Shown: positions 1,894 through 45,315 of the stretch, piece by piece
How positions within the stretch are numbered: the stretch's first letter is position 1
Layout of the letters: the number at the start of each line of letters is the position of its first letter
Translations under genes and position numbers: made by a program
Assembly (NCBI GenBank): GCA_947379895.1
Contig: CANCPA010000010.1
Span: 1 to 45,477, forward strand
Direction of reading: 5' to 3'
From: Chitinophagaceae bacterium
GTDB taxonomy: Bacteria; Bacteroidota; Bacteroidia; Chitinophagales; Chitinophagaceae
Length of the DNA stretch: 45,477 nt
Notes under the pieces: generated by a model
Databases searched by the model: none
What the model saw: only the letters and a program-made list of their open reading frames with translations
What the model was told of the DNA's origin: nothing

Positions 1894-4800
1894 TTATCGT
1901 ATCAATACTATTGTCCCTTTACGTTCAAAATACTCTCCTGTATCACATTGTGCTTGAAGCATGTATACGTAAGTTCCCGGTGCAACCTGTTTCCCTTTAA
2001 AGGTACCATCCCACCCTCTATTCAAATCATTTGGCTGAAAATGTGTACTTTCAAAAATCAATTCTCCTCCCCTATTGTAAACTCTCAAGAAAAGTATTTC
2101 TTTCACCCCTACCCCTTGTGGAAAAAACTTATCATTGTTTTTATAGGTACTCGAAGGAATAAATGCAGAAGGTAAAAATAGAGATTCGGAACAAATCAAG
2201 TGAATGGAAATGGAATCTTTAACTGAACATCCATTTGCATTCGTCACATTCAAGGTATATACAATATCGTGCTTGGGTGAACAAATAGGAGTTGCCGAAA
2301 TTGAATCACTTAAATAGTCTGAAGGAGACCATTTATATGTCACAACATCAGGAGACACTGTAGCATTCAACTTGGCTTGATATCCTGTTAGCATTGTCAT
2401 TGTGTCACTAATCGAAATAGTTGGAAAAGGAACCTGTATTACCGTAATAGTATTGGTATCATGTTTACAAAGTCCATTCCAAGCATCAAACTGATAAATT
2501 GTGGTAGCTGCCACAGGTGTTGCAATTGGATTTGAGGAATTGTTGCTATAATTTATGAGAGTGGAACTATCCTTAAGCCATACATAATTGTCGGCACCTG
2601 ATACATTCAATTGAACGCTTAACCCTTTACAAACAATCGCATCTGGTGAAAAAACTAATGTCTTTTTTACCAAAGGAGTAACATTTATGGTTGCAGTATC
2701 ACTTTTTGAGCAACCATACACATTCGCAACCTTTACATAATAATTTGTATTTACAATTGGACTAACGGTGGGAGTTGATTGTGTTACGGGTACCTTATCG
2801 GGACTCCAAAAAAATTGGGTGCCATCAAATGCCGCTAGTTTGGCGGTATCCCCTTCACAAATCTGCTTTACTTTTGGTACGAGTCCAACTCTCGGATAAG
2901 GGTTTACTGTTAATGGAAACAGGGTGGTATCGTAACAATTATTGAGCATTGTTACTAATTGAATGGTATAATGACTAATAGAATCTTTTGCCGATGTGAA
3001 AACTTCTGCTTTCGGGTTTTGTATTAAAGAACTATCTCCATTATTAAATATCCAATGCCACAGTACATTTCCTGGGAAGGACTGAGTTGCAGTAAATGTT
3101 ATAGAATCGCCCTCGCAAGCCTTTGCTGGTGCTGTAATAATTCCTCTTGACGATGGTTTTACAAAAACAGAGTCTTCAAAACTAGCCGAACAACCATAAA
3201 CAGATGTAACAAATTGAGTTACAGGATAGCTGCCTATTGTATTGTATCTGAATGTTGGCGCAAGCACATTTGAAGTATCTTTTGGATTTCCTGTGCCAAA
3301 TGTCCAATGATAAGTAAGGGTTTTTTGTAAAGAGTCGGACGAAAAACTAACAATATGCGGTGTAAATAGAACGGTTCCTGTATCACAAACAGGGATTCTA
3401 TTCATTTTAAATGATGTATGCAGTGAATCAATAATTATTGGCTTAATTGCAGGGAATGAAGACTTACAACCATTTACATCAGTCAATAGAATATGTGGTG
3501 TATAAATTCCTGCAGTTACATACTCATGTGTAATAAATGAATCGGGACTATTTAAAATCACAGTGCCGTCGCCAAAATCCCAAGTGAAAGCAGTTGTATT
3601 AACCTGTGTGGATTTAAGACTTACCGTAGAATGAATACATCCCTGAGTTAGGTCGGAAGTTACGGTAGCATAAGCCCCCTTTACAGTGATGGTTTGAGAA
3701 GAAGAGTCGAGCAATAGACTGTTTTTATACGCATATAAAGTAACGACATATATACCTGGATCATTGTAAGTATGGCTAGCAAATGTATCGGTAGAGAGTG
3801 CTTTACCCGATCCATCACCAAAATCCCATTTTAAACGATCTGCATTAATTGAACGACTCGTAAATACTGCCTGCATTGGAGGACAGGTATTTCTATTGGA
3901 GTATTTAGTCTTTATAGTGAAAACTGCAAATACCCGTTTTATAGGAACTAAGTGATAGACGGAATCTCTACAACCATTCAATGGGTTAACTGCTATCAAC
4001 TGAACAGAATCTACTTCTGTTTTATTATATGTATGCGAGGTATTATAGGTATTGGCATGAGTTCCATCGCCAAAGAAGGTCCAAAAAAAGTCGACTAAGG
4101 TATTTCCATAGGCATTTGAGGTATTGATAAAGGAGGCTGTTGTTCCTGTTATAATATAATTTGGACTCCATCGGAAATTCACTTTTGGTCCACTTGGAAA
4201 GGCTGAATCGCTTTGTTTCGAAATATCGAAACAGCCATCACTATCCACCACTTTTAACTCAGTAGCAAATTTGCCAGGAAAGGGATACATGTGTGTCACA
4301 TTACTATTAGTTGTTAAAGTGTCGAAAGTATTATCCCCATAGTTCCATATCCACTTTGTAATTGGCACTCCAAAATTTGTTTTAGAGGTATCTATGAATG
4401 TAAGTGGCTTTTTAAAACAGTCTTTGGGTGAATTTATATAATAGCCCCCCACAGGTCCCTTTACTTTTAAATTAATAAAATTACTTGTATCTAAGCAGCC
4501 ATAATTTGCAGACTTAGTTATTACCCGAAGATCTGTCTTACCGGGTATCAACCCTTTTAACATCCCTAAATAAGAAAAATACCAATTAGGTTGTTCACTT
4601 AATCCTTGCGAGAAAACACTAGAATCGCCATATTGCCATGCATAAATACTATAATAAATACTATCATTCCAAACAGAAGGATTTCTTGCTAATGTGGAAG
4701 TATCAATCATCACTTTTAAAGAGTCATTAGCACATATTGAAGTTAAATTGGCTTTAAGGATTGGATGTTGTCTTAGGAGAACAGGTACCCATATTGTATC

Positions 4801-6915
4801 TTTTGGAGTACATCCTCCATTCGTAGTAGTAAGTACGACCCTATAATTGCCTGTGCCTGGAAATTGATGACTAATTGTACGGACTGTAGTATCTACTAAA
4901 ACAATTGGCGATCCATCTCCAAAATCCCAAGTACCAGAAACAACAGATTTATAGTAACCTGTAAATTTGACGGTGTTTCTTTCACCGGAACAAGGGAATT
5001 GTGTCGAATCAATTTGGCTAATAGGGGTTTTTATGTGGATATATTGAGTATTAGTTATAGAATCGGAACAGGTTCCATTCGTTGCAATAAGTTTAATGTC
5101 ATAATACCCTGTATCGAAATAAAAATGCTTTGGATTTTGTATGATACTTGTACTGTAAATACTATTTCCTCTTGTGTGTAAACTATCTCCAAAATACCAA
5201 AACCAACTCGTAACAGGCAATGGAGTCTTGTCAAAAAAACTAACAGATCCACCACATACATCCTGTGACATTACTGAGAAGGCAGGTTTGGGTTTTAAAA
5301 AAGTAGTAATATTTCGTAAATAAGCAGAGTCACTACAACCATCTAGCGAGGTGTATTTTAAAGTTACAGCAAAACTTCCTGTCGAATCATAGGTATGTGT
5401 GGGGCTTGAATCGGTTGAAATAGTAGCATAATCGCCAAACGTCCAAGCATAAGAAATTATATCAGTAGAAGGATTCGCATTAAATTTTACTTTTAGTCCT
5501 GGGCAGCCCGATGTATTACTTATTGGGTTATCGGAGGTAGAAGTAATGTAAACAGGTACATGCTTCACTTCAACATTTTGCACCACTTTGGCAGCACATC
5601 CTGCAGTATTCGTTGCCGAAAGAGAAATGTTATATGTACTATCATGAGTAAAGGTATAGCTCGCAGGATTTGTCAAAAGCGTTTCGGTTAATCCATCAAT
5701 ATTCCACGATGTAGTAAAACTGTTAGTGGTATCTGTGAGTGTTATCATTGTTTTCCCACCACATAAAGGTGCCGAACTAACAGAGAACCCACCTATCGAA
5801 TAGCTTGGCAGAACAGTAATAGTTTTAGAAATCGAATCAAGACAAGTACCATATAAATTAACAAGCTTAACTGTATAGGTTCCCGCCTTGTTGAATATTT
5901 TGGTCATATTTATCCCACTAATAGCAGATGATTGACTTGAAACATACCAATTAGCAACATCAGGAATCGGTGTACTTATATTGGTAAAATTGATACTACT
6001 CTCTGCACACATCCCCTTAGGAGTAATAAAATTCGTCATAAACGAAGCACTATAGATGGGAGTAGGAGAAAAGGAAGTATCGCTACACCCATTTGTATTT
6101 GTTACTATTAATGAATCGGCAAAAACACCTACATTGGAATAAGTGTGAGTAGGAGAAGAAGATGAAGAAGTAGCCGCATCACCGAATTTCCACAAATAAG
6201 TGGCGTTAGGTTCAACAATTGAATTATTTGTGAAGGAAACCGCATCACCTGCATTGCATAAATATGCTTTCGACCTTACATAATTAGCAGTAGGCTTAGT
6301 GAGGGCATTAATAAAGTTAGCCTTAGAAAGTAAAGTAGTAGCACAGCCTGTATTTGTTTTAACCTGTAATTTGATAGTATAATAACCTGGATTCTTGTAA
6401 TCGTGATTAACAAACTGCGAAGAGGAATCCCCATTAATAGTAGTGCCATCACCAAAATCCCAATAATAATAGCCTGTGTTGCCCGTTCCAAGCGACGATG
6501 TACTCTTAAAACTTACATTGAAGGGTGCACAACCTGTGCTAGCATCTACAGTAAATGAAGGCGCAGGATTTTTCAGAACAGTTATAATCATCGATTTTGT
6601 AGATGTGCTACCATTGTCTGTGACAGTTAATGTTACCGTATAGCTTTGTTCGATAGTATAGGTAGTTGCCGCATCTTTATTTGAAGAGGAATTACTATTA
6701 CCAAAATCCCATTTATACGTGGCCGAATTAGAAGTACCAGTAGTAGTATTTGTAAATGAAACAACAAGTGGACTACAACCTGATGTACTGCTTGGAATAA
6801 AATTCGCTTTAGGTTGGGCAAGGAGAATGCTATAAACATTTATAAAAAGGAATAGTAGACAATATTTTAGGTTTAAAATAAAAATAATCTTAAAGCTTGG
6901 CAATTTCTTTGACAT
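1894..6915 (-). CDS. Giant PKD-repeat surface protein with T9SS type B (CHU_C) sorting domain
   Basis: 1673 residues from the ATG at 6915. An upstream in-frame ATG at 6981 lies on or before the likely promoter and would put extra residues ahead of the signal peptide, so 6915 is preferred. A signal peptide covers residues 1-34, ending SILLAQ. About 15 PKD-like beta-sandwich repeats follow. The clearest carry WDFGNS, WDFGDG, WKFGD, WTFGD, WYFGD and WNYGD, while two or three are degenerate. Then come two or three Ig-like domains (FFWSPDK..., YVWLKDS..., YKWSPSDYL...) of the type found in gliding proteins. The last ~95 residues, starting CSESLFLPSAFIPSS and containing VYNRGGELIFES and GWDGTFKGK, form the type B CTD, which directs T9SS export. 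Likely role: surface adhesion or gliding (inference). A full-length paralogue lies inverted at 20317-25344. Confidence 0.88.
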   Translation of the reverse strand: MSKKLPSFKIIFILNLKYCLLFLFINVYSILLAQPKANFIPSSTSGCSPLVVSFTNTTTGTSNSATYKWDFGNSNSSSNKDAATTYTIEQSYTVTLTVTDNGSTSTKSMIITVLKNPAPSFTVDASTGCAPFNVSFKSTSSLGTGNTGYYYWDFGDGTTINGDSSSQFVNHDYKNPGYYTIKLQVKTNTGCATTLLSKANFINALTKPTANYVRSKAYLCNAGDAVSFTNNSIVEPNATYLWKFGDAATSSSSSPTHTYSNVGVFADSLIVTNTNGCSDTSFSPTPIYSASFMTNFITPKGMCAESSINFTNISTPIPDVANWYVSSQSSAISGINMTKIFNKAGTYTVKLVNLYGTCLDSISKTITVLPSYSIGGFSVSSAPLCGGKTMITLTDTTNSFTTSWNIDGLTETLLTNPASYTFTHDSTYNISLSATNTAGCAAKVVQNVEVKHVPVYITSTSDNPISNTSGCPGLKVKFNANPSTDIISYAWTFGDYATISTDSSPTHTYDSTGSFAVTLKYTSLDGCSDSAYLRNITTFLKPKPAFSVMSQDVCGGSVSFFDKTPLPVTSWFWYFGDSLHTRGNSIYSTSIIQNPKHFYFDTGYYDIKLIATNGTCSDSITNTQYIHIKTPISQIDSTQFPCSGERNTVKFTGYYKSVVSGTWDFGDGSPIVLVDTTVRTISHQFPGTGNYRVVLTTTNGGCTPKDTIWVPVLLRQHPILKANLTSICANDSLKVMIDTSTLARNPSVWNDSIYYSIYAWQYGDSSVFSQGLSEQPNWYFSYLGMLKGLIPGKTDLRVITKSANYGCLDTSNFINLKVKGPVGGYYINSPKDCFKKPLTFIDTSKTNFGVPITKWIWNYGDNTFDTLTTNSNVTHMYPFPGKFATELKVVDSDGCFDISKQSDSAFPSGPKVNFRWSPNYIITGTTASFINTSNAYGNTLVDFFWTFFGDGTHANTYNTSHTYNKTEVDSVQLIAVNPLNGCRDSVYHLVPIKRVFAVFTIKTKYSNRNTCPPMQAVFTSRSINADRLKWDFGDGSGKALSTDTFASHTYNDPGIYVVTLYAYKNSLLLDSSSQTITVKGAYATVTSDLTQGCIHSTVSLKSTQVNTTAFTWDFGDGTVILNSPDSFITHEYVTAGIYTPHILLTDVNGCKSSFPAIKPIIIDSLHTSFKMNRIPVCDTGTVLFTPHIVSFSSDSLQKTLTYHWTFGTGNPKDTSNVLAPTFRYNTIGSYPVTQFVTSVYGCSASFEDSVFVKPSSRGIITAPAKACEGDSITFTATQSFPGNVLWHWIFNNGDSSLIQNPKAEVFTSAKDSISHYTIQLVTMLNNCYDTTLFPLTVNPYPRVGLVPKVKQICEGDTAKLAAFDGTQFFWSPDKVPVTQSTPTVSPIVNTNYYVKVANVYGCSKSDTATINVTPLVKKTLVFSPDAIVCKGLSVQLNVSGADNYVWLKDSSTLINYSNNSSNPIATPVAATTIYQFDAWNGLCKHDTNTITVIQVPFPTISISDTMTMLTGYQAKLNATVSPDVVTYKWSPSDYLSDSISATPICSPKHDIVYTLNVTNANGCSVKDSISIHLICSESLFLPSAFIPSSTYKNNDKFFPQGVGVKEILFLRVYNRGGELIFESTHFQPNDLNRGWDGTFKGKQVAPGTYVYMLQAQCDTGEYFERKGTIVLIR

Positions 6916-11579: not shown

Positions 11580-12013
11580 GATAAACTTTTATAAAAATGG
11601 GAAAAAATATGTAGTACGGTTCAATTGTATAATTTGAGTAAACAAAACAGCTTCCATTATTTAATTTAAAAAAGTTAATATAATTATTTATTAGTAATAA
11701 CGATTATTCACACCAATAATGAATTTTATTGATAGGACAAATTGGGGGAATCTATTTATAAATTAGAAACTAAATCGTCACAAAAGAACCATTTGTCTAA
11801 TCAACTCACTATAAATGAAAAGATTAAAAAAACTATTAAATCGAATGTGAAACATCAGATTATAATTTCAATAAATATAAAGCTAAATTTAAAACAATAA
11901 ACTTCTGACAATTAAAAGCAGCGTTTATTGGTGAGTCTAATTAATATAAGTGATTGTAATAAATTGAATCTACTAAAATTAGTCTTAACATCTAGTGATG
12001 TTTCAATAACTAT
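11580..12013. other. AT-rich intergenic stretch before MITE; no gene
   Basis: No open frame of note. A pair of weakly complementary ends, near 11804 (CTCACTATAAATG) and 11935 (TTTATTGGTGAG), hints at a further, badly decayed member of the CTCACC element family. Confidence 0.4.
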
Positions 12014-12227
12014 CTCACCTCACACAACGATTAATAAAGGATATTAAGTCTAATTTATATTCTTCAACACAAAGACACAAATACTCAAAGTAGCTCAAAG
12101 AAAAAATGAAGTATTGATACTTATGAAGTGCTTTAAAGAACTTAGTGCCTTTGCGACTTAGTTTCTTTGTGGCAATAGAAATAAAAAAAGACAAAAAACA
12201 TTTGATTCAATCAAAGCGTAAAGTGAG
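12014..12227. mobile_element. 215-bp MITE, CTCACC family, copy 1
   Basis: Left end CTCACCTCACACA, right end AGCGTAAAGTGAG, flanked on both sides by TAACTAT (12007-12013 and 12228-12234), a perfect 7-bp duplication. The body is about 93 percent identical by eye to 25839-26053 and in the same orientation. It contains the CACAAAGACAC...TTTCTTTGTGG foldback seen in many Bacteroidota intergenic repeats. It has no coding capacity. Confidence 0.75.
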
Positions 12228-12234
12228 TAACTAT

Positions 12235-12705
12235 TTAAAACAATTCTCAGAAGCAAATTGCATAATTTTTCAAAGCAATTTTCAACATTTAATTTTATGA
12301 TTCAATCAACTTTTTAACTTTTTAATTTTATTTATTGAATTTACTCTTTACATTTGCCATAAATGTGTAAAAAATACACATTACATTTTGCTAAATGAAA
12401 AATTATACATATTGCTTGAATTGAATCATTTGATAAGTAACGATTGTGTTTTCTTTTACATGGTAAAAATAAATTAGTAAAGAAGTTGACAAATTATAAT
12501 TGCTGTTATGAACCTATTAATTAATGCATTAACTAATTACTATTAATTATCCTTTTGCTAAATAAAATTTATAATGAATTATAACTCTAATAAGCACAAC
12601 TTAAAATTTCGATGGCATAGTCGATATCTAACAATACAAAGCATAGTATTAAATGCTAAAAATTTTCTTTCAAATTCTTCCTTACTCAATAATAATACAC
12701 TCAAA
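12235..12705. other. Leader region of the giant adhesin; no gene or clear promoter
   Basis: Very AT-rich. An in-frame ATG at 12574 extends the adhesin frame by 44 residues, but those residues do not look like a signal peptide, so this part is treated as untranslated leader. I could not find a convincing TTTG-N19-TAnnTTTG pair. Confidence 0.4.
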
Positions 12706-20316: not shown

Positions 20317-23300
20317 ATGTTACATGCTATTACATCGTTGCAGCTCAAACACAATTTCAATATAAAGTATTGCTTACTGTCTCTTACCCTTCTATTTTCA
20401 ATTGTATCAAATGCACAATTACAAGCCGACTTTATTGCTAGCAACACTTCAGGCTGTAGCCCTCTAGTAGTTTCCTTTACTAACACATCGAGAGGTATTT
20501 CAAACACTGCAAAATATCAATGGGATTTTGGAAATAGTAATTCTTCAACAAATAAAGATGCCGCTACAACTTACACAGCAGAACAATCTTTTATTGTGAC
20601 ACTTACTGTTACTGATAATAACGTTTCTTCTTCAAAATCAATGACGATCAATGTATTTAAAAGTCCTACACCTCAATTTTTTGTAAATAATACCACAGGC
20701 TGTCCGCCTTTTAATGCAACTTTCACAAGTACATCCTCTACTGGATCGGGTAATACAGTTTATTACTATTGGGATTTTGGAGATGGAAATACCATTAATG
20801 GAGATACAACATCACAAATAGTCAACCATAAATATACTTCAACAGGAATTTACACTGTAAAATTACAAGTGAAAACAAATACGGGTTGTGCTACAACATT
20901 AATGACTAAACCTAATTTGGTTAATGTTCAACCAAAACCTCTTGCTTCGTATGTACGTTCTAAAAACTTTTTGTGTAATAACTCAGGCGAAGCAATTACA
21001 TTTTCAAATAGTACTTCTGTAGATCAAGGAATTAAATATCTATGGAAATTTGGTGATGGCACTACTTCCAATGAAGTTTCTCCAACCCATCTTTACATTG
21101 GCAAGGGTACCTATTCTGATTCGTTGATTGCTACAAACTCGACTGGCTGTAGCGATACATTTCACTCCTCGACTCCTATTTTCAGTTCTACATTCAAATC
21201 AGATTTTGTGATTCCAAATTCTGGACTTTGCACAAACAATGACATCTTTTTCATAAATAATAGTAATACACTTCCCGATAACTCTAATTGGTATTTTCCT
21301 GGACAACCTACCCCAAACATTGGTATAAACACAAATAAATCATTTATTAAGGCAGGTATTTATAGTATTAAACTTGTGAATCAATTTGGGAATTGTATAG
21401 ATTCAATAACAAAAAAAGTTACCATTATACAAGGAATTACTTCTTTAGGCTTCACAATTAACCAAGTACCATTATGTGCCGGAAAAACATTAGTTACACT
21501 AAAAGATACTGCTGTACACAGTTCTACGTTATGGAATCTTCAAGGTAGTTCAGATACAATAAAATCAAATCCTGCACAATACACTTTCTCACATGATAGT
21601 ACACTTGTATTCTCACTTACTGTATCTAACTTAAACGGTTGTAAAGCAACCATACAAAAAACGATAGTAGTTAAACATACACCTGTTGTGATAAAATCAA
21701 AAACTATAGATCCTAGATACAATACTTCAGGATGTAAGGGACTAAAGGTTAAATTCTCTGCATTTCCTTCCGATAATATTGGCTCCTTTTTGTGGAGCTT
21801 TGGCGATTCAACATTTGCATCAGACTCTGCCCCCACTCACACATTTGATTCTGTTGGAAAATTTCCAGTCGAACTTAAATACACTACACTAGATGGATGT
21901 AATGATACGGCATGGCTTAAAAATATAGTTACCTATTCAAAACCTGCTCCTGCATTTACAGTTACCAATCAAGAAGTTTGCGGGGGTACTGCTCGTTTTA
22001 TTGATAAAACACCAAAGCCGGTATCAAGTTGGATGTGGTATTTTGGAGATAGCTCAAATACGCGAGGTTTTCGTAACTATAGTATCAGTGCTTCTCAAAA
22101 CCCAATACACTCTTATTTTGATACAGGCTATTACGACATCAAGTTTATTGCAACTAATGGCACATGTTCAGATTCTGTTACAGTTCAACGATATGTTCAC
22201 ATATTGGCTCCAATAGCAACTATCGACTCCATAAAATATACTTGTTCTGGCGCAAGAGACTCTGTTGTATTTTGGAATTATTACAAGAGTGTGGCTTCAG
22301 GAACATGGGATTTTGGCGATAATTCTGAGCTTTTGACTTTAGATACAACTATTCACTTTGTCACACATAAATATCCCAAAACAGGTACATACCGTGCAAT
22401 TCTAACCACTACATATGAAGGATGCACATCGAAAGACACTGCAACGGTTTATATACTTACCAAACAAAATCCTATTTTGTCTGCAAACTTAAGCGCTGTG
22501 TGTACAAACGATTCTATTAAAGTGATGATTGATACTTCTACCTTAGCTAAGAACCCTTCATCAATAAAAGATAGAAATTATTATAGTATTTTCGAATGGC
22601 AATATGGTGATTCTACCATTTTCACAAAGGGCTTAACTCAACAAACTAATTGGTACTATTCTTATCTTGGCATGCTTAAGGGGCTGATTCAAGGTAAGAC
22701 AAATCTGAGGGTAATTACCAAATCTCAAAACTTTGGCTGCTTAGATACTAGCAATTTCATTAATTTAAAGGTGAAAGGACCTTTCGCAGGATATTATATC
22801 AATACCCCTCAGGACTGTTTTAAACACCCACTTTCGTTCGTTGACACCTCAAAATTAAACTTCAATGTTGCAATCGATAAGTGGATATGGAACTTTGGAG
22901 ATGGCAACAATGATACCCTAACAACTAACGGCAATACAAGTCATAGCTTCAGCATTCCTGCTAAGTATCCTGTATCATTGAAAGTGATTGACAAAGACGG
23001 CTGTTTTGATGTTTCCAAAAAGGGAGATACTGCCATGCCAAGTGGACCAAAAGCAGATTTCAGTTGGTCACCCAATTCTATTCTTTCAGGTTCTACTGTT
23101 TCATTTATAAATAACACGAATACTTTTGAGAATAAGAAGGTTAATTATTCATGGACATTTTTTAGTGAAGGAATCAAGGATACTACTAGTTCTCCTCGCC
23201 ATATATATAACATGGTTGGAACAGACTCGGTGCAACTAATCGCTGTAAATCCTCAAAATGGCTGTAGCGATACTATTGCTAATTCTGTTGCCATTAAAAA

Positions 23301-25344
23301 AGTATTAGCAGCATTTTCCATCAAGTCTACTTACATTAATAATAATACTTGCCCTCCGATGCAAGCACTATTTACAAGCCGCTCCATCAATGCAGACAAA
23401 TTAAGTTGGAATTTTGGAGATGGTTCAGCAGGTAAATCTATTTCATCAGATACTTTTGCAAGCCATACTTACGATGAACCCGGTGTTTATAATGTAACCC
23501 TTTATACTTATAAAAATAATTTACCACTAGATTCTACTACTCAAATAATCGTTGTAAAGGGTGCTTATGCCTCTGTAACATCTGACCTAACGCATGGCTG
23601 TGTGCCTTCAACCATTAACATAAAAGCTTCTCTTGTAAATACAGCCACTGTTACTTGGGATTTTGGAGATGGAACTGTCATAGTCAATAGCCCCGATTCA
23701 ATGATTACCCATCAATATACATCCGTAGGAAATTACACTCCCCACATTTTGTTGACTGATATAAATGGTTGTAACTCTTCTTTCCCAACTCAGAAGCCTA
23801 TTTTTATTGATTCACTTCGTACTTCATTTTTAATTGACAAAGCTTCATTATGTGATACAGGTACCGTTAGTTTCATTCCATTTACAAATTGTTTCTCTGC
23901 TGATTCATTAAGAATGCCACTAAAAGTTCATTGGAGTTTTGGAACAGGCAATGAAGCGGATACTTCAAACGAATTAGCCCCTTCTTTCACTTACAAAGCA
24001 AATGGTCGGATGCCTGTAACTCAAACAATAACATCTGCTATTGGTTGTATTGCAACATTTAAAGATTTTGTAGAAATTAAACCATCTGCAAAAAGTATCA
24101 TTTCAGCCCCTTTGAATGTTTGTGAAGGCATGCCTGTAAATTTCTCTGCAACGCCCACTCACAATGGAAATATTCAATGGAATTGGAATTTTAATAACGG
24201 CAAAACATCTTCTTTACAAAACCCTTTACCCCAAATTTTTGTATCTGATAAAGATTCAATTAGTCATGATACTATTCAACTAATTACAACTCTAAATGAT
24301 TGTGTCGATACCACCTATTTTCGTCTTACAGTATATCCTAATCCACGAGTAAATCTTGTTCCAAAAACAAAAGCAATATGTAGTGGTGATACCGTAAAAT
24401 TAATTGCACATGGTGGTGCTATTTTTAAATGGAATCCTAGTATTTCATCAAATACTTTGGCAACTCCAATTGTCAGTCCCAAAAACACTACAACCTACAC
24501 TGTAGATGTAACTAATAAATATGGCTGTACTAGTAGTGATACAGCTTTCATTAAGGTCACACCTGGCATGAAAGAAACATTAACGTACCCAAAAGATACG
24601 TTTGTATGTCAAGGAATGAGCATACAATTGCCTGTTTCGGGTGCCGATAGTTATGTTTGGTTGAGTGATACTACTACACTTAGGAATTTCGCTAACAACT
24701 CATCAAGCCCAATTGCAACTCCTGTACATGCGACAACTACATATACGTTTATTGCAAGTGATAAAAATGGTTGTGCTGCAGAAACTGTGAATATTAATGT
24801 AACTACAGTACCATACCCTACACTTAAAACTGCAGATGCCATGACAATAGCAACAGGAAGTATTGTTTCGTTAAATGCTTCTGCTTCTTCGGATGTAGTT
24901 TCTTATCATTGGTCGCCTTCAGAATATTTAAGTAATCCTGATGCAGCAACACCAATTTGTTCTCCAAAAAACAACATGCTTTATTATGTTACTGTGGCAA
25001 ATCAATTTGGTTGTTCGGCTAAAGATTCAATCAGTATCCAACTTTCATGTTCTGAATCCCTCTTTGCACCCACAGGATTTCTTCCATCGAGTACATCAGG
25101 GAACGAAATTTTTTATCCAAAAGGACAGGGTGTAAGGGAAATAAAATTCCTAAGGATATATAATAGAAGCGGTGTGTTAATGTTTGAAAAGAACCATTTT
25201 CATCCAAATGAAAAAAATGATGGTTGGGATGGTACATACAGAGGGAATAAATGCCCTGCAGAAATTTATATTTATGTAATGGAAGCGATTTGCGATACCG
25301 GAGAAGTTTTTGAGAAAAAAGGCACTGTCGTATTAATCAGATAA
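20317..25344 (+). CDS. Giant PKD-repeat surface protein, paralogue of the 1894-6915 gene, T9SS type B sorting domain
   Basis: 1675 residues, with a signal peptide at 1-34 ending SNAQ, the same length as in the paralogue. The two proteins align from end to end without large gaps: both begin with SGCSPLVVSFTNT and WDFGNSNSS, share CPPFNATF/CAPFNVSF, RVITKS..GCLDTSNF and INLKVKGP, and end CSESLF...YNR.G...GWDGT.G.K...GTVVLIR/GTIVLIR. About 15 PKD-like repeats carry WDFGDG, WKFGDG, WSFGDS, WYFGDS, WNFGDG and variants, followed by Ig-like domains and the type B (CHU_C) CTD of ~95 residues. Predicted to be exported by T9SS and held at the cell surface or released. Identity to the paralogue looks like roughly 60-65 percent by eye, so this is an old duplication, not a recent one. 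Confidence 0.88.
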   Translation: MLHAITSLQLKHNFNIKYCLLSLTLLFSIVSNAQLQADFIASNTSGCSPLVVSFTNTSRGISNTAKYQWDFGNSNSSTNKDAATTYTAEQSFIVTLTVTDNNVSSSKSMTINVFKSPTPQFFVNNTTGCPPFNATFTSTSSTGSGNTVYYYWDFGDGNTINGDTTSQIVNHKYTSTGIYTVKLQVKTNTGCATTLMTKPNLVNVQPKPLASYVRSKNFLCNNSGEAITFSNSTSVDQGIKYLWKFGDGTTSNEVSPTHLYIGKGTYSDSLIATNSTGCSDTFHSSTPIFSSTFKSDFVIPNSGLCTNNDIFFINNSNTLPDNSNWYFPGQPTPNIGINTNKSFIKAGIYSIKLVNQFGNCIDSITKKVTIIQGITSLGFTINQVPLCAGKTLVTLKDTAVHSSTLWNLQGSSDTIKSNPAQYTFSHDSTLVFSLTVSNLNGCKATIQKTIVVKHTPVVIKSKTIDPRYNTSGCKGLKVKFSAFPSDNIGSFLWSFGDSTFASDSAPTHTFDSVGKFPVELKYTTLDGCNDTAWLKNIVTYSKPAPAFTVTNQEVCGGTARFIDKTPKPVSSWMWYFGDSSNTRGFRNYSISASQNPIHSYFDTGYYDIKFIATNGTCSDSVTVQRYVHILAPIATIDSIKYTCSGARDSVVFWNYYKSVASGTWDFGDNSELLTLDTTIHFVTHKYPKTGTYRAILTTTYEGCTSKDTATVYILTKQNPILSANLSAVCTNDSIKVMIDTSTLAKNPSSIKDRNYYSIFEWQYGDSTIFTKGLTQQTNWYYSYLGMLKGLIQGKTNLRVITKSQNFGCLDTSNFINLKVKGPFAGYYINTPQDCFKHPLSFVDTSKLNFNVAIDKWIWNFGDGNNDTLTTNGNTSHSFSIPAKYPVSLKVIDKDGCFDVSKKGDTAMPSGPKADFSWSPNSILSGSTVSFINNTNTFENKKVNYSWTFFSEGIKDTTSSPRHIYNMVGTDSVQLIAVNPQNGCSDTIANSVAIKKVLAAFSIKSTYINNNTCPPMQALFTSRSINADKLSWNFGDGSAGKSISSDTFASHTYDEPGVYNVTLYTYKNNLPLDSTTQIIVVKGAYASVTSDLTHGCVPSTINIKASLVNTATVTWDFGDGTVIVNSPDSMITHQYTSVGNYTPHILLTDINGCNSSFPTQKPIFIDSLRTSFLIDKASLCDTGTVSFIPFTNCFSADSLRMPLKVHWSFGTGNEADTSNELAPSFTYKANGRMPVTQTITSAIGCIATFKDFVEIKPSAKSIISAPLNVCEGMPVNFSATPTHNGNIQWNWNFNNGKTSSLQNPLPQIFVSDKDSISHDTIQLITTLNDCVDTTYFRLTVYPNPRVNLVPKTKAICSGDTVKLIAHGGAIFKWNPSISSNTLATPIVSPKNTTTYTVDVTNKYGCTSSDTAFIKVTPGMKETLTYPKDTFVCQGMSIQLPVSGADSYVWLSDTTTLRNFANNSSSPIATPVHATTTYTFIASDKNGCAAETVNINVTTVPYPTLKTADAMTIATGSIVSLNASASSDVVSYHWSPSEYLSNPDAATPICSPKNNMLYYVTVANQFGCSAKDSISIQLSCSESLFAPTGFLPSSTSGNEIFYPKGQGVREIKFLRIYNRSGVLMFEKNHFHPNEKNDGWDGTYRGNKCPAEIYIYVMEAICDTGEVFEKKGTVVLIR

Positions 25345-25556
25345 TTGATAGATAAAATAAAAATTAGGGAAGCAAATCAAAACTACTTCCTTATTAATTC
25401 AATGTTCCATTAAATTCAATAACTGACCAAATTATCTACAATATAAATAAGATACAAACTACAGACTAATCTCAAAAAACACCCTATGCAAATACTGATC
25501 ATTATCTATCTTTTGCTATTACCACTTATTTTTTAACCCATTAATACAAGTGCGGC

Positions 25557-25770
25557 AATCACTCAAGCACAATTTTTAACCACACAAGCACGTGCTTTAA
25601 CCACTCCCGTACTTACGGCAATCACTAAAGTACGTGCTGCAACCACTCCCGTACTTACGGCAACCACAAAAGAACGTGATTTAACCACTCCCATACTTAC
25701 GGCAATCACACAAGCACGTGCTTTAACCACTCAAGTACGTGCTGCAACCACACAAGCACGTGCTTGTGTG
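25557..25770. repeat. 21-bp tandem array with dyad-symmetric units (array 1)
   Basis: Ten consecutive 21-bp units without indels, 25557-25766. Two unit types are mixed: AACCACACAAGCACGTGCTTT-like (unit core AGCACGTGCT) and AACCACTCCC-GTACTTACGGC-like (core CCGTACTTACGG). In both types the dyad centre falls between unit positions 14 and 15. The last unit plus four bases forms a perfect 22-bp palindrome (25749-25770, halves CACACAAGCAC and GTGCTTGTGTG). A continuous reading frame of 7-codon repeats (TTPVLTA, ITKVRAA) crosses the array, but it has no start codon. Confidence 0.85.
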
Positions 25771-25838
25771 ACAAAAAAATCGAGTTTCAGAGTAAATTCA
25801 GTTTCAGAGATTGGTAATTTTAGTGCCTTTGTTAATAA

Positions 25839-26053
25839 CTCACCTTACGCAATAATTAATAAAGGTTATTAAGTCTAATTTATATTCTTCAACACAAAGA
25901 CACTAATACTCAAAGTAGCTCGAAGAAAAAATGAAGTATTGATACTTATGAAGTGCATTAAAGAACTTAGTGACTTTGCGACTTAGTTTCTTTGTGGCAA
26001 TAGAAATAAAAAAAGACAAAAAAACATTTGATTCAATCTATGCGTAAGGTGAG
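25839..26053. mobile_element. 215-bp MITE, CTCACC family, copy 2
   Basis: The ends CTCACCTTACGCA and TGCGTAAGGTGAG are perfect 13-bp inverted repeats. The flanks TTAATAA (25832-25838) and TGAATAA (26054-26060) match at 6 of 7. The body is nearly the same as copy 1 at 12014 and in the same orientation. The terminal repeats are better preserved than in copy 1. Confidence 0.8.
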
Positions 26054-26115
26054 TGAATAATTAAAAGCCATTAGTAAACTGTGTAATGAACACTTATAGA
26101 AAAATAAGATAGTAT

Positions 26116-26274: not shown

Positions 26275-27741
26275 CTAAAAAATCTCATTCAGTACTAAAT
26301 CCTTAACCTTATCCATAGAGATTCTTTCTTGAAGCATGCTATCTCGGTAACGGATAGTCACTGTTTTATCTTCTAAAGATTGATGATCGACTGTAACACA
26401 AAATGGAGTTCCAATTGCATCTTGACGGCGATATCGCTTTCCTATTGCATCTTTTTCTTCAAAGAAGCATTTAAAGTAAGGTTTACACTCGTCCATTAAT
26501 TCCCTTGCTAGTTCAGGTAAACCATCTTTTTTTGTTAATGGAAGAATAGCCAATTTATTAGGTGCGATCTTAGTAGGAATATGAAGTACCACACGACTAT
26601 CAGTTGTACCATCCTCCTTAGTGATTGTTTCTTCTTCGTATGAATTAGATAATATCAATAAGAACATACGATCCAAACCAATTGAAGTTTCAACGACATA
26701 AGGGATATAGTTGCCAAATGCCTTTCCTGTAGTTTCGTCAATATCATTATCAAAATACTGCATCTTCTTCTTGCTGTATAGTTGATGTTGTGTCAAATCG
26801 AAGTCACTACGCGAATGAATACCCTCTACTTCTTTGAAACCAAATGGAAATTCAAATTCAATATCGCATGCTTCTTTAGCATAGTGTGCCAACTTAACGT
26901 GGTCATGATAGCGATATTTCTCAGCATCAATACCCAAACTTAAATGCCATTGCAAACGTGCCTCTTTCCAGAATTTGTACCAAAATCCTTCTGTACCAGG
27001 ACGAACAAAAAACTGCATTTCCATTTGCTCAAATTCCCTCATACGAAAAATAAATTGACGAGCAACAATTTCATTTCTGAATGCCTTTCCTGTTTGTGCT
27101 ATACCAAAAGGAATTTTCATTCTTGCAGTCTTTTGAACATTCAAGAAGTTAACAAAGATTCCTTGTGCTGTTTCAGGACGCAGATAAATAGTATTTGCAT
27201 CTTCGGCTACTGAGCCAAGTTGCGTATCAAACATCAAATTAAACTGTCTAATTTCTGTCCAATTACTAGTTCCACTTACCGAACACACAATTTTATTATC
27301 TGCTAATAATTGTTTTAGAGAAACAAAATCTTCGGCAGCAAGAAGTATATCCATTTGTTTCAATAATGCTTCTGCTTCATCAGCTTTTCCTTCATTTGTA
27401 AGAATATCAGCTTTTGCTTCAATCAAATGATCCACACGGTAACGTTTCTTACTATCCTTGTTATCAATCATAGGATCACTAAAATTATCAACATGCCCAC
27501 TTGCCTTCCAAGTTGTCGGGTGCATAAAAATTGCAGCATCAATACCCACAATATTCTCATGCATCTGAGTCATGCTTTTCCACCAATAATCTCTGATATT
27601 CTTCTTTAATTCACTCCCATTTGGGCCATAATCATATACTGCACTTAGACCATCATAAATTTCACTTGATGGAAACACAAAGCCATATTCTTTGGCATGA
27701 GAAATAATTGACTGAAATATTTTATCTGATTGTACGCTCAT
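26275..27741 (-). CDS. glyS: Glycyl-tRNA synthetase (single-chain, eukaryote/archaea-like class IIa)
   Basis: 488 residues, the normal length for the homodimeric type. It charges tRNA-Gly with glycine in the cytoplasm. Class II signatures: motif 1 region GLSAVYDYGPNGSELKKNI near residue 28, motif 2 FRNEIVARQFIFRMREFEQ (~217-235) and motif 3 GLDRMFLLIL (~350). The C-terminal anticodon-binding domain begins near KIAPNKLAILPL (~390) and contains RYRRQDAIGTPFCVT. The ATG lies 10 nt after TATATTTG (minus strand), a perfect -7 box, but no -35-equivalent TTTG is placed 19 nt before it. Transcribed divergently from ridA; the gap is 197 bp. The alpha2 form, not the alpha2beta2 GlyQ/GlyS form, is standard in Bacteroidota. 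Confidence 0.96.
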   Translation of the reverse strand: MSVQSDKIFQSIISHAKEYGFVFPSSEIYDGLSAVYDYGPNGSELKKNIRDYWWKSMTQMHENIVGIDAAIFMHPTTWKASGHVDNFSDPMIDNKDSKKRYRVDHLIEAKADILTNEGKADEAEALLKQMDILLAAEDFVSLKQLLADNKIVCSVSGTSNWTEIRQFNLMFDTQLGSVAEDANTIYLRPETAQGIFVNFLNVQKTARMKIPFGIAQTGKAFRNEIVARQFIFRMREFEQMEMQFFVRPGTEGFWYKFWKEARLQWHLSLGIDAEKYRYHDHVKLAHYAKEACDIEFEFPFGFKEVEGIHSRSDFDLTQHQLYSKKKMQYFDNDIDETTGKAFGNYIPYVVETSIGLDRMFLLILSNSYEEETITKEDGTTDSRVVLHIPTKIAPNKLAILPLTKKDGLPELARELMDECKPYFKCFFEEKDAIGKRYRRQDAIGTPFCVTVDHQSLEDKTVTIRYRDSMLQERISMDKVKDLVLNEIF

Positions 27742-37426: not shown

Positions 37427-38365
37427 TTGGAAGCGTTTGTAATATCTATAAATAATGAAAAGCGAAAGTAAGATTTGTTGATAATAATCTGTCCACATTG
37501 TGTTGCAAATGATAGTTTCAATGTTGCAAAAGAGGCTATTCTATGCTACTAATAATATTTCAATCGATAAAAAAACAGCTAAGACCGAGGTTCTTATATA
37601 ATGTTTGAACTATAGTCAATCTTCAATTTAACCACTAACTATTAACTTAGAAAACATTTTGCAGTTCTCATTTTCCACTTCAATAAACTTAAACCCAGAT
37701 TACTCAATAGACACGTTATGAAATTCAGAAATACAAAAAGACAAGCTTTTATACAGTTTTTTTGACTGATGACATAATAAATCCCGTTGAAGTCAAACAA
37801 ATCAAGTAAAAGCCGTGTTTGAAGTTGTTGTGAATTGTAATAGTGTCCTTTTGTGTAATCTGGGTTATAAAGTAAGTTATTGGTTTTTACTACGAAAATC
37901 GGGCAAGGCTTTTACACTGAGTTTATCAAACTGCTACTCTAAAAGGCAGTCCTTTTCCTGACGGGTTGGAACATTTTTCTCATGAAGACAATGTTTCGCT
38001 TCACAGTAGCTTTTGACATTTTGTGCATGAAAAAAGAAATGTTGACAATTGATATGTCATTTAAAGCAACAAATATCGATTTGACTTGCAATGTTGAAAT
38101 TACAAATTTAGAATTCTACCCTAGTCTTTCTAAAATCCGATTCAGCATTGAATATTTGTTTTGCTGTGGAAATTTCTATATTTAAAATCACAATAAATCG
38201 ACCAATTTCTTATATTATATTCATCTTAACCACCATTATTTTCTATTATTAGGATAATAAAGTTTTATCAAATTACTTTGCGACATTAAACGTTTCAAAA
38301 TTATTGCTATCTCTAAGTTGAATGATAACAATAAAGTATATAATCAATAAACACACATTAGTTAA
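37427..38365. other. Divergent susC-GH43 intergenic region with foldback element
   Basis: About 940 bp without a credible gene. A 67-codon frame at 37982-38185 has no recognisable features and no neighbour logic. Apart from the foldback element (37692-37866), the region contains AT-rich sequence next to each start where the promoters must lie. On the minus strand TACTTTCG, about 65 nt before the susC ATG, is a 7 of 8 match to the -7 box. Before GH43, TTACTTTG near 38274 is a similar near match. Confidence 0.4.
37692..37866. mobile_element. 175-bp foldback (MITE-like) element
   Basis: AACCCAGATTAC (37692-37703) and GTAATCTGGGTT (37855-37866) are perfect 12-bp inverted repeats. Complementarity continues imperfectly for about 65 bases inward (GACAC/GTGTC, AAGCTTTTA/TAAAAGCC). 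The flanks ATAAACTTA and ATAAAGTAA agree at 7 of 9, a possible target duplication. There is no coding capacity. The ends are unrelated to the other two element families. Confidence 0.6.
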
Positions 38366-41666: not shown

Positions 41667-41917
41667 TTATTAATGCACTGATTTCCTAATTGAATACCTT
41701 TATAACAATATGAATGTTGTTACTTTCATTAACCTTCATTTCAACTTTCTGATTATAATTTTATTAAATATTTATTGTATAAAAAGGTTGCGAAACTAAT
41801 TTAATTAAGCAAAATTAAAATTTATCAATCTTAGATATGGAATCCATTTTAAGAAAACAACTCAGAGATTTTATAATTATTGCAACTGTGAATCTTTCTA
41901 AAATCACAAAATGAATA

Positions 41918-42148
41918 GAATTGCTACGTTTGTGGAAGGAATTGCTACATTTCAGAATGGAATTGCTACGTTCATGAACAGAATTGCTACGTTCGTGAAT
42001 GATTCAGGCATCTTCGTGCTTGGTTCAGCTACGTTTCAGAGTGGAATTGCTACGTTCGTGAATGGAATTGCTACGTTCGTGAATGGAATTGCTACGTTCC
42101 AATTTGTCTCCCTGACGTCAGGAATTTGTTCATTGACATCAGGAGATA
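41918..42148. repeat. 21-bp tandem array, GAATTGCTACGTTCGTGAATG-type units (array 2)
   Basis: Eleven units in exact 21-bp register from 41918 to 42148. Seven begin GAATTGCTAC; four (units 5, 6, 10, 11) are diverged. Units contain partial dyads such as GTTCATGAAC and CATTTCAGAATG, and unit 10 holds the perfect 12-mer CCTGACGTCAGG. The array lies in an open frame from ATG at 41911 that encodes seven-residue repeats (GIATFVN). Because the period is a multiple of three, the frame may be incidental. Confidence 0.85.
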
Positions 42149-45217: not shown

Positions 45218-45220
45218 AAT

Positions 45221-45315
45221 TGTTAGTTGTTAGTTATTAGTTGTTAGTGATTTCCAACAATATTTATCACTATAAACTATTAACTCGTAATTCGTAATTG
45301 TATATTCGTAATTGA
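45221..45315. repeat. Short AT-rich direct repeats between era and der
   Basis: Units GTTAGTTGTTAGTTATTAGTT and CGTAATTCGTAATTG...CGTAATTG fill the gap. Similar TTAGTGGTTAGTGG runs occur after the kdnB-like gene (43377-43399). They look like replication-slippage repeats and show no open frame. Confidence 0.6.

Follow-up and report, generated by a model that had tools for sequence, protein, structure and literature searches.

The array and its surroundings

The stretch of DNA analysed here (the window, 45,477 nucleotides) carries a tandem array of 21-bp units between two convergent genes, one encoding a protein with PKD repeats and the other a class II aminoacyl-tRNA synthetase that is probably a glycyl-tRNA synthetase (Table 1). 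The ten units follow one another without a single insertion or deletion, and nine of them carry a dyad whose axis falls between unit positions 14 and 15. This is the best axis in 9 of the 10 units (tied in one of them with position 12), the dyad having been lost from the first unit (25557-25577). The exact 21-bp register, the dyad centre common to nearly every unit and the perfect palindrome that closes the array had all been described in an earlier note on this DNA, and all three descriptions hold; the closing palindrome does not extend beyond 22 bp.

Two types of palindrome occur in the window units, one resembling AAGYANNTRCTT and the other CCGYANNTRCGG, together with hybrids of the two. 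They amount to an AAG..CTT type and a CCG..CGG type, and the core of the family is GYANNTRC with AA/TT or CC/GG outside it. Because the two types partly alternate, TRF prefers a 42-bp period (score 257) to the 21-bp period (score 129). Elsewhere in the window, two large ORFs on opposite strands form an inverted paralogous pair with 65% DNA identity over 4.9 kb.

Table 1. Features of the window and of related loci; positions without a locus name are those of the window
Feature	Position	Strand	Basis or remark
Tandem array, ten 21-bp units	25557..25766	.	Sequence, TRF
Perfect 22-bp palindrome at array end	25749..25770	.	Sequence; 100% minus-strand self match
Possible extra degenerate unit, register kept	25536..25556	.	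Score 10.3 with a profile of the array's own units; weak
Right flank, about 40 bp weakly similar to the right flank of the C31 copy (L042)	25767..25810	+	By eye, weak
Left neighbour, large PKD-domain protein	20317..25344	+	CHU_C type IX secretion signal match, just below cut-off
Right neighbour, class II aminoacyl-tRNA synthetase with HGTP anticodon-binding domain	26275..27741	-	Pfam scan of flanking genes
Inverted paralogous ORFs	1991-6809 and 20423-25247	opposite	
Direct repeat, 231 bp	12011-12240 and 25836-26066		92.6% identical
Dispersed repeat, about 180 bp	37686-37867		Also in L040 and L041
Second 21-bp array	41912-42099 (and 42101-42144)		TGAATGGAATTGCTACGTTCG
Heptamer array, TTGTTAG	45220-45252		
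RAYT-like gene	L040 5881-6513		NF047646 match; own CCTGACAGG..CCTGTCAGG repeats
Gene for 230-248 aa protein	L040 7204-7950 and L045 4624-5316		Adjoins array in C53 and G009:C122
Degenerate 21-bp array (G005)	L473 3139-3306		Upstream of aminoacyl-tRNA synthetase gene

Symmetry and covariation

The earlier note had held that the symmetry would be chance if shuffled units showed the dyad as often. They do not: across the shared axis of the window array 46 of the 60 base pairs are matched, whereas 2000 shuffles within units averaged 19.6 and never exceeded 28, and column permutation, which retains the tandem structure, reached the observed symmetry in 0 of 200 and 0 of 400 trials. The symmetry is incomplete in that the central dinucleotide is free.

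Covariation, a further check suggested in that note, was computed on 81 units from nine related arrays, with positions d1, d2 and so on counted from the dyad axis; 20-bp units, unit 3 of the C24 copy, which carries a deletion, and the last unit of G9b, truncated by a contig end, were excluded. An excess of Watson-Crick pairing across the axis is found only at d3-6 (244/324, against 191.7 ± 8.1 after shuffling, reached in 0 of 2000), with no excess at d1-2 (125/162 against 131.3) or at d7-10 (131/324 against 127.5), figures that are not probabilities, because the units share ancestry. The result is no different when the shuffling is done within arrays. When only same-numbered units are shuffled, the joint value for d3-6 is reached in 0 of 2000 and is carried by d5; singly, the observed values are reached in 1768 of 2000 shuffles at d3, 497 at d4 and 185 at d6.

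The confinement of covariation in the window family to d3-6, with none at d1-2, is what one would expect if the array were transcribed as a string of short hairpins, each with a 4-bp stem and an ANNU loop at a 21-nt pitch, that titrate an RNA-binding protein. In a 26-row alignment of three-unit pieces, 81.4% of the cells are paired in this hairpin structure, compared with 69.1% after shuffling and at most 48.7% in slid versions. A 20-bp unit found in seven copies would form the same stem with a 3-nt loop (by eye), and at d3 T.G exceeds C.A by 18 units to 4 in the window family, a count that is largely inherited and is dominated by inherited rather than independent units. The whole window gave zero Rfam matches at gathering scores.

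A dispersed family

The search of the complete genome and of relatives that the earlier note had proposed returned further arrays in both. In the 5.3-Mb genome (401 contigs), six more related arrays lie on C2, C53, C4, C31, C24 and C54, and among 58 relatives matches are confined to two loci of one congener, G009, so that the family numbers seven arrays in this genome and two in G009. Several copies have about 420 to 560 bp in common, comprising the array and its flanks, with ragged limits; the C24, C54 and window copies have essentially the array alone in common. Over non-orthologous loci as a whole, the common stretch is about 200 to 560 bp, again with ragged limits. The flanking genes differ from locus to locus. 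The exceptions are C53 and G009:C122, which are orthologous, and G009:C270, which has part of the flank found at these two. A 20-bp unit around AAAGATTCTTTTTG occurs in seven of the nine arrays (AATGATTC in C24) and is missing from C54 and the window array; the C24 copy also has a 1-bp deletion. Pfam scans of the flanking genes across the loci revealed neither a common neighbour gene or operon role nor a transposase gene common to the family. None of the copies showed fixed ends, and no locus resolved as an empty site.

Other repeats and genes lie close to some of these arrays. One copy of a 231-bp direct repeat begins about 65 bp past the window array. The dispersed repeat of about 180 bp, which looks like a small insertion element, splits the left flank of the C4 array in L041. 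The 230-248 aa protein encoded beside the array in C53 and in G009:C122 has no Pfam or NCBIfam match and weak PHROG matches of unknown function alone, and the related locus L046 is without the segment that carries it.

The half-site core is held after dispersal

We compared seven homologous arrays unit by unit, counting changes from the unit consensus. There are 15 changes in 122 at d1, 0/122 at d2, 15/122 at d3, 4/122 at d4, 6/122 at d5 and 5/122 at d6. Taken together, the core (d2-6) has 30 changes in 610 and the spacer (d7-10) 68 in 488 (p = 2e-7), a core rate about one-third that of the spacer; d3 is as free as the spacer, yet covaries between units. The array has also diverged less than its own right flank in 10 of 10 pairs among C2, C53, C4, C31 and G9a (C24 was excluded, and G9b is without a right flank). 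Identities in array and flank are 199/215 and 113/132 for C53-G9a, 192/215 and 92/132 for C53-C4, and 183/215 and 87/132 for C2-C4, with no gaps across the 215 array columns in those pairs. Change in the spacer thus runs at roughly the pace of the flank, and it is the core that is conserved.

All 30 changed stem pairs are changed on one side: relative to the consensus, 15 became mismatches, 5 became G.T and 10 became Watson-Crick, and 14 of the 15 mismatch outcomes began as a Watson-Crick pair. Two-sided compensation is found in 0 of the 30, a test of limited power given how few changes there are. This pattern speaks against a constraint on pairing alone. The selection on symmetry proposed in the earlier note is thus upheld as far as the core sequence is conserved, and not in the matching of changes across the axis, since after dispersal one-sided change is the rule. 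The lack of compensation also tells against RNA hairpins. It is expected of the main rival explanation, in which the arrays are functionless repeats: a mutational process particular to the genus would duplicate 21-bp segments, preferably ones that fold back, template switching would keep the arms complementary, and recombination would spread copies that then decay. This explanation does not predict a d2 without change, a core that changes one-third as often as the spacer, or an array better conserved than its own flank.

The same comparison bears on whether the array could encode a heptapeptide repeat, 21 nt being seven codons, as one reading frame stays open through the window array. With five copies compared in that frame (ten pairs, summed), changes at codon positions 1, 2 and 3 number 54/460, 91/460 and 64/460 in units 1-6, with no third-position excess; the corresponding counts are 40/210, 34/210 and 22/210 in units 8-10 and 71/290, 70/270 and 76/280 in the right flank. 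In that frame a stop comes straight after the core of the last unit in 6 of 9 copies, and in the seven copies that contain a 20-bp unit the frame is shifted by it. Over 42 arrays of the wider class described below, open frames average 2.29, against 2.09 in permuted controls, which is no clear excess. The window array does not look protein-coding, and we regard a heptapeptide repeat as scarcely credible.

21-bp arrays recur across the genus

The window array is one of many in its genus, which the earlier note had missed. We sampled about 925 kb in stretches from six genomes of the genus, including its own. Of the 82 TRF arrays outside ORFs, 60 repeat at 21 bp or a multiple of it, which gives a density of about 6.5 per 100 kb (60 in 925 kb) that may be somewhat high, because contigs were chosen for holding a hit or an array. 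For other genera, four genomes (400 kb) yielded two TRF arrays outside ORFs, one of them of period 21, and 19 further stretches (379 kb) yielded three period-21 rows, at least one of which is heptameric. Independently of TRF, the six top autocorrelation lags in the pooled non-ORF DNA of the genus are 21, 42, 84, 63, 105 and 126, with an identity at lag 21 of 0.321 against a median of 0.279. Lag 21 or 42 comes first in five of the six genomes, the order in G011 being 126, 105, 21. This series of multiples is absent from the pooled stretches of 23 genomes of other genera, where lag 21 is second (0.280 over 0.267), just under lag 6.

A three-unit covariance model recovered further 21-bp arrays of other sequence in congeners. 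In other genera, the covariance model R1 had weak matches in 30 genomes of 294 searched. Loci from 25 of the 30 were examined, and one carries a TRF array of the 21-bp type at the match. Among the most worn members is a very degenerate array in G005 (L473 in Table 1). Identity there is 0.517 at lag 21 and drops to 0.19-0.29 on either side (lags 17-20 and 22-25). The pitch is exact, and little is conserved besides GGCA and ACA islands.

Symmetry within this class was assessed by column permutation in 42 arrays that lie outside ORFs and repeat at 21 bp or a multiple of it. Nineteen of the 42 reach p < 0.05 and 11 reach p < 0.01. On reading, at least nine are members of the window family or hits of its model, and without those nine 14 of 33 are symmetric. 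Among non-family arrays with at least four units, 12 of 32 show no symmetry (p > 0.2). In the symmetric arrays, pairing usually runs from d2 outward and leaves a centre of 2 or 3 bp unpaired; 13 of the 15 even-axis arrays listed have d2 paired in 80% or more of their units, the exceptions being L393 and L403. In the 16 symmetric arrays outside the window family, units agree with one another most in the core (identity 0.816), less in the spacer (0.652) and least in the centre (0.505), values that are partly a consequence of picking the axis and the centre width by pairing. The families thus have one geometry in common, with 5-bp half-sites, a variable centre of 2-3 bp, a spacer of about 9 bp and a 21-bp pitch. 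The palindromes themselves vary by family (CTCANNTGAG, AAATGNNCATTT, CCAAGNNCTTGG and TGGTG..CACCA, for example), and arrays in G007 and G006 show CCAAG..CTTGG as opposed to CCGAG..CTCGG alongside a similar spacer.

These comparisons cost RNA hairpins further ground. Pairing at d2 would reduce the loop to 2 nt, and mismatch events in 20 symmetric arrays comprise 8 distinct G.T and 14 A.C, so that these arrays give no sign of selection on an RNA strand. A structured RNA, one of the options raised in the earlier note, fits worse than dyad sites for a dimeric protein, and we consider it improbable. Many unrelated palindromes at one pitch, and a centre that is free and often the most variable part of the unit, are what duplication of fold-back segments would produce.

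The window holds a second 21-bp array, which lies within an ATG-started ORF of 81 aa. It is not palindromic (p = 0.45), and nothing else in the genome is strongly related to it (best match elsewhere, E = 0.05). A heptamer array also occurs in the window; arrays of 7 and 14 bp recur in the genus and contribute weakly to the 21-bp signal.

We also scanned viral and genome contigs of other phyla with a sequence pattern. Of 238 loci among the matches listed, 182 are coding-like by ORF length, 39 are between and 17 are non-coding-like, with no clear difference in outer symmetry among the three groups; because the pattern itself demands 21 bp and symmetry, such hits are no evidence for a wider class. 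Under that same requirement, 21-bp arrays around GTACGTAC palindromes in Planctomycetaceae and Verrucomicrobiales MAGs (L206, L222, L244, L226 and L268) are a lead only.

Gene context and turnover

By type of intergenic gap, 44 arrays are in tandem gaps, 9 in divergent and 9 in convergent gaps, against length shares of 64, 22 and 14%, a baseline that outside G007 covers stretches with a TRF row. Because this context is near neutral, classical promoter operators are not indicated, and we rejected a terminator or promoter role. Two other array families occur on many contigs in several species. At the CCAAG locus of G007, whose right flank is conserved in ten other genomes, 9 of the 10 are without a TRF array within 700 bp upstream, and the same locus in G002 has a different 42-bp array with a CTAAAACTCGAGTTTTAG palindrome of its own. 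Arrays therefore come and go, and they behave like mobile or fast-turnover repeats. Both this turnover at an orthologous locus and the near-neutral context are in keeping with functionless repeats, an explanation that we rate as somewhat unlikely overall.

Possible phased sites for a dimeric protein

The reading we favour, and hold tentatively as plausible rather than probable, is that the array presents phased, double-stranded dyad sites to a putative dimeric protein, within dispersed, mobile-like non-coding repeats. Each site would consist of two 5-bp half-sites flanking a free 2-bp centre, and sites exactly two turns of B-DNA apart would set the dimers next to each other along one face of the helix. 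The binder could be one protein or two close paralogues, the latter accounting for the two palindrome types and their hybrids. The window array belongs to a dispersed, mobile-like family, one of many in the genus that differ in their palindromes and agree in geometry. These families are probably read by related proteins, whose role would be to compact or silence intergenic DNA, or else to mobilise the arrays.

We infer binding, dimeric state and role from the anatomy of the arrays. A platform for a dimeric protein had been among the options of the earlier note, and two parts of that anatomy support it. The conserved core is symmetric, apart from d3, and the centre and spacer are unconstrained, as they are in 16 other arrays, these with some ascertainment. 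The helical phasing is kept without indels, apart from the 20-bp unit in seven of nine copies and the deletion in C24. The binder itself is putative.

Several observations sit less well with phased dyad sites. The variation of the half-sites is coupled across the axis (AA..TT or CC..GG), a coupling not needed if one protein reads two independent half-sites, and d3 covaries between units in spite of its freedom. Palindromes so numerous, at the density of 21-bp-type arrays given above, are many for an ordinary regulator; the gene context is near neutral; and more than a third of the non-family arrays with four or more units show no symmetry. The coupled half-sites and the recurrence of one geometry in many families suggest one of two sources, a group of related proteins or a mutational process that generates palindromes. 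The difference in rate between core and spacer favours related proteins; turnover, neutral context and the lack of compensation favour the mutational process. The bolder proposal, that dozens of families of mobile-like arrays across the genus, each a row of 12-bp interrupted palindromes at exactly 21 bp, are read by matching paralogous dimeric DNA-binding proteins, we consider unlikely.

If that proposal were true, the arrays would make up a visible share of the intergenic DNA and constitute a new kind of chromosome-organising or self-spreading element. As protein platforms, they would mean that much of the intergenic DNA of the genus is organised on one helical ruler with interchangeable palindromes, and would offer a natural test bed for the evolution of phased multi-site DNA binding, silencing or compaction. 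As products of mutation, they would reveal a process of replication or repair whose step is fixed at two turns and which generates palindromes as well. Under either reading, the 21-bp comb is strong and, in the sampled stretches, belongs to one genus only.

Comparison with known systems

Among the literature matches listed, none describes 21-bp palindromic arrays in Bacteroidota. Nor are these CRISPR arrays, in which the spacers would be unrelated; here the 9-bp spacers are related to one another. The Pfam scans of flanking genes gave no common neighbour beside the arrays, such as the toxin gene that type III toxin-antitoxin RNA repeats would have. BOX-like and dRS3/NIME composite repeats are modular, dispersed and non-coding, with internal tandem or paired short palindromes; the present arrays differ from them in their exact 21-bp pitch and in their many sequence families of one geometry. 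The ends of transposons such as Tn7 carry rows of transposase-binding sites of about 20 bp on a mobile element, whereas no fixed ends and no transposase gene common to the loci were seen here.

The copies might alternatively be REP/BIME-like elements moved by a REP-associated tyrosine transposase (RAYT), and a RAYT-like gene does lie about 300 bp from the C53 copy (NF047646, E = 5.7e-10, below the cut-off; HFH motif by eye). It is flanked, however, by repeats of its own that differ from the array palindrome (Table 1), so that no cognate RAYT flanked by that palindrome was found there, and the orthologous G009 locus has the array but not the segment that carries this gene. Y1 transposases occur in 42 of 58 genomes of other genera, sampled stretches of other genera lack the arrays, and the 65.9 kb near Y1 genes hold 6 arrays of the 21-bp type, one of them that of C53, which is close to the general density. 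With the gene missing at the orthologous locus, no enrichment of arrays near Y1 genes and Y1 genes common elsewhere, this origin is largely refuted, and we regard it as very improbable. A relative of the RAYT-like gene on G000:C130 (L048) lies among TTTGGTAACTTT..GTTGCCAAATC repeats.

REP/BIME sequences, as described in PMC2817692 and PMC3733652, are small intergenic palindromic repeats that are dispersed in high copy and sometimes form regular groups. The array family is likewise small, intergenic, palindromic, multi-copy and dispersed. It differs from them in its head-to-tail runs of about ten 12-bp palindromes, in one orientation and at a fixed 21-bp pitch, and in that no cognate RAYT was found; the GTAG or CGTC tag at the palindrome foot, so named in PMC3733652, is absent by eye from the ten window units. 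The CopR-CopY operator, TACANNTGTA (PMC7253601), is an example of an operator site with a 2-bp centre. Ours differs in its core, GYANNTRC, in its ten sites in a row and in having no particular promoter location, and resembles that operator in being a short interrupted palindrome around a free 2-bp centre.
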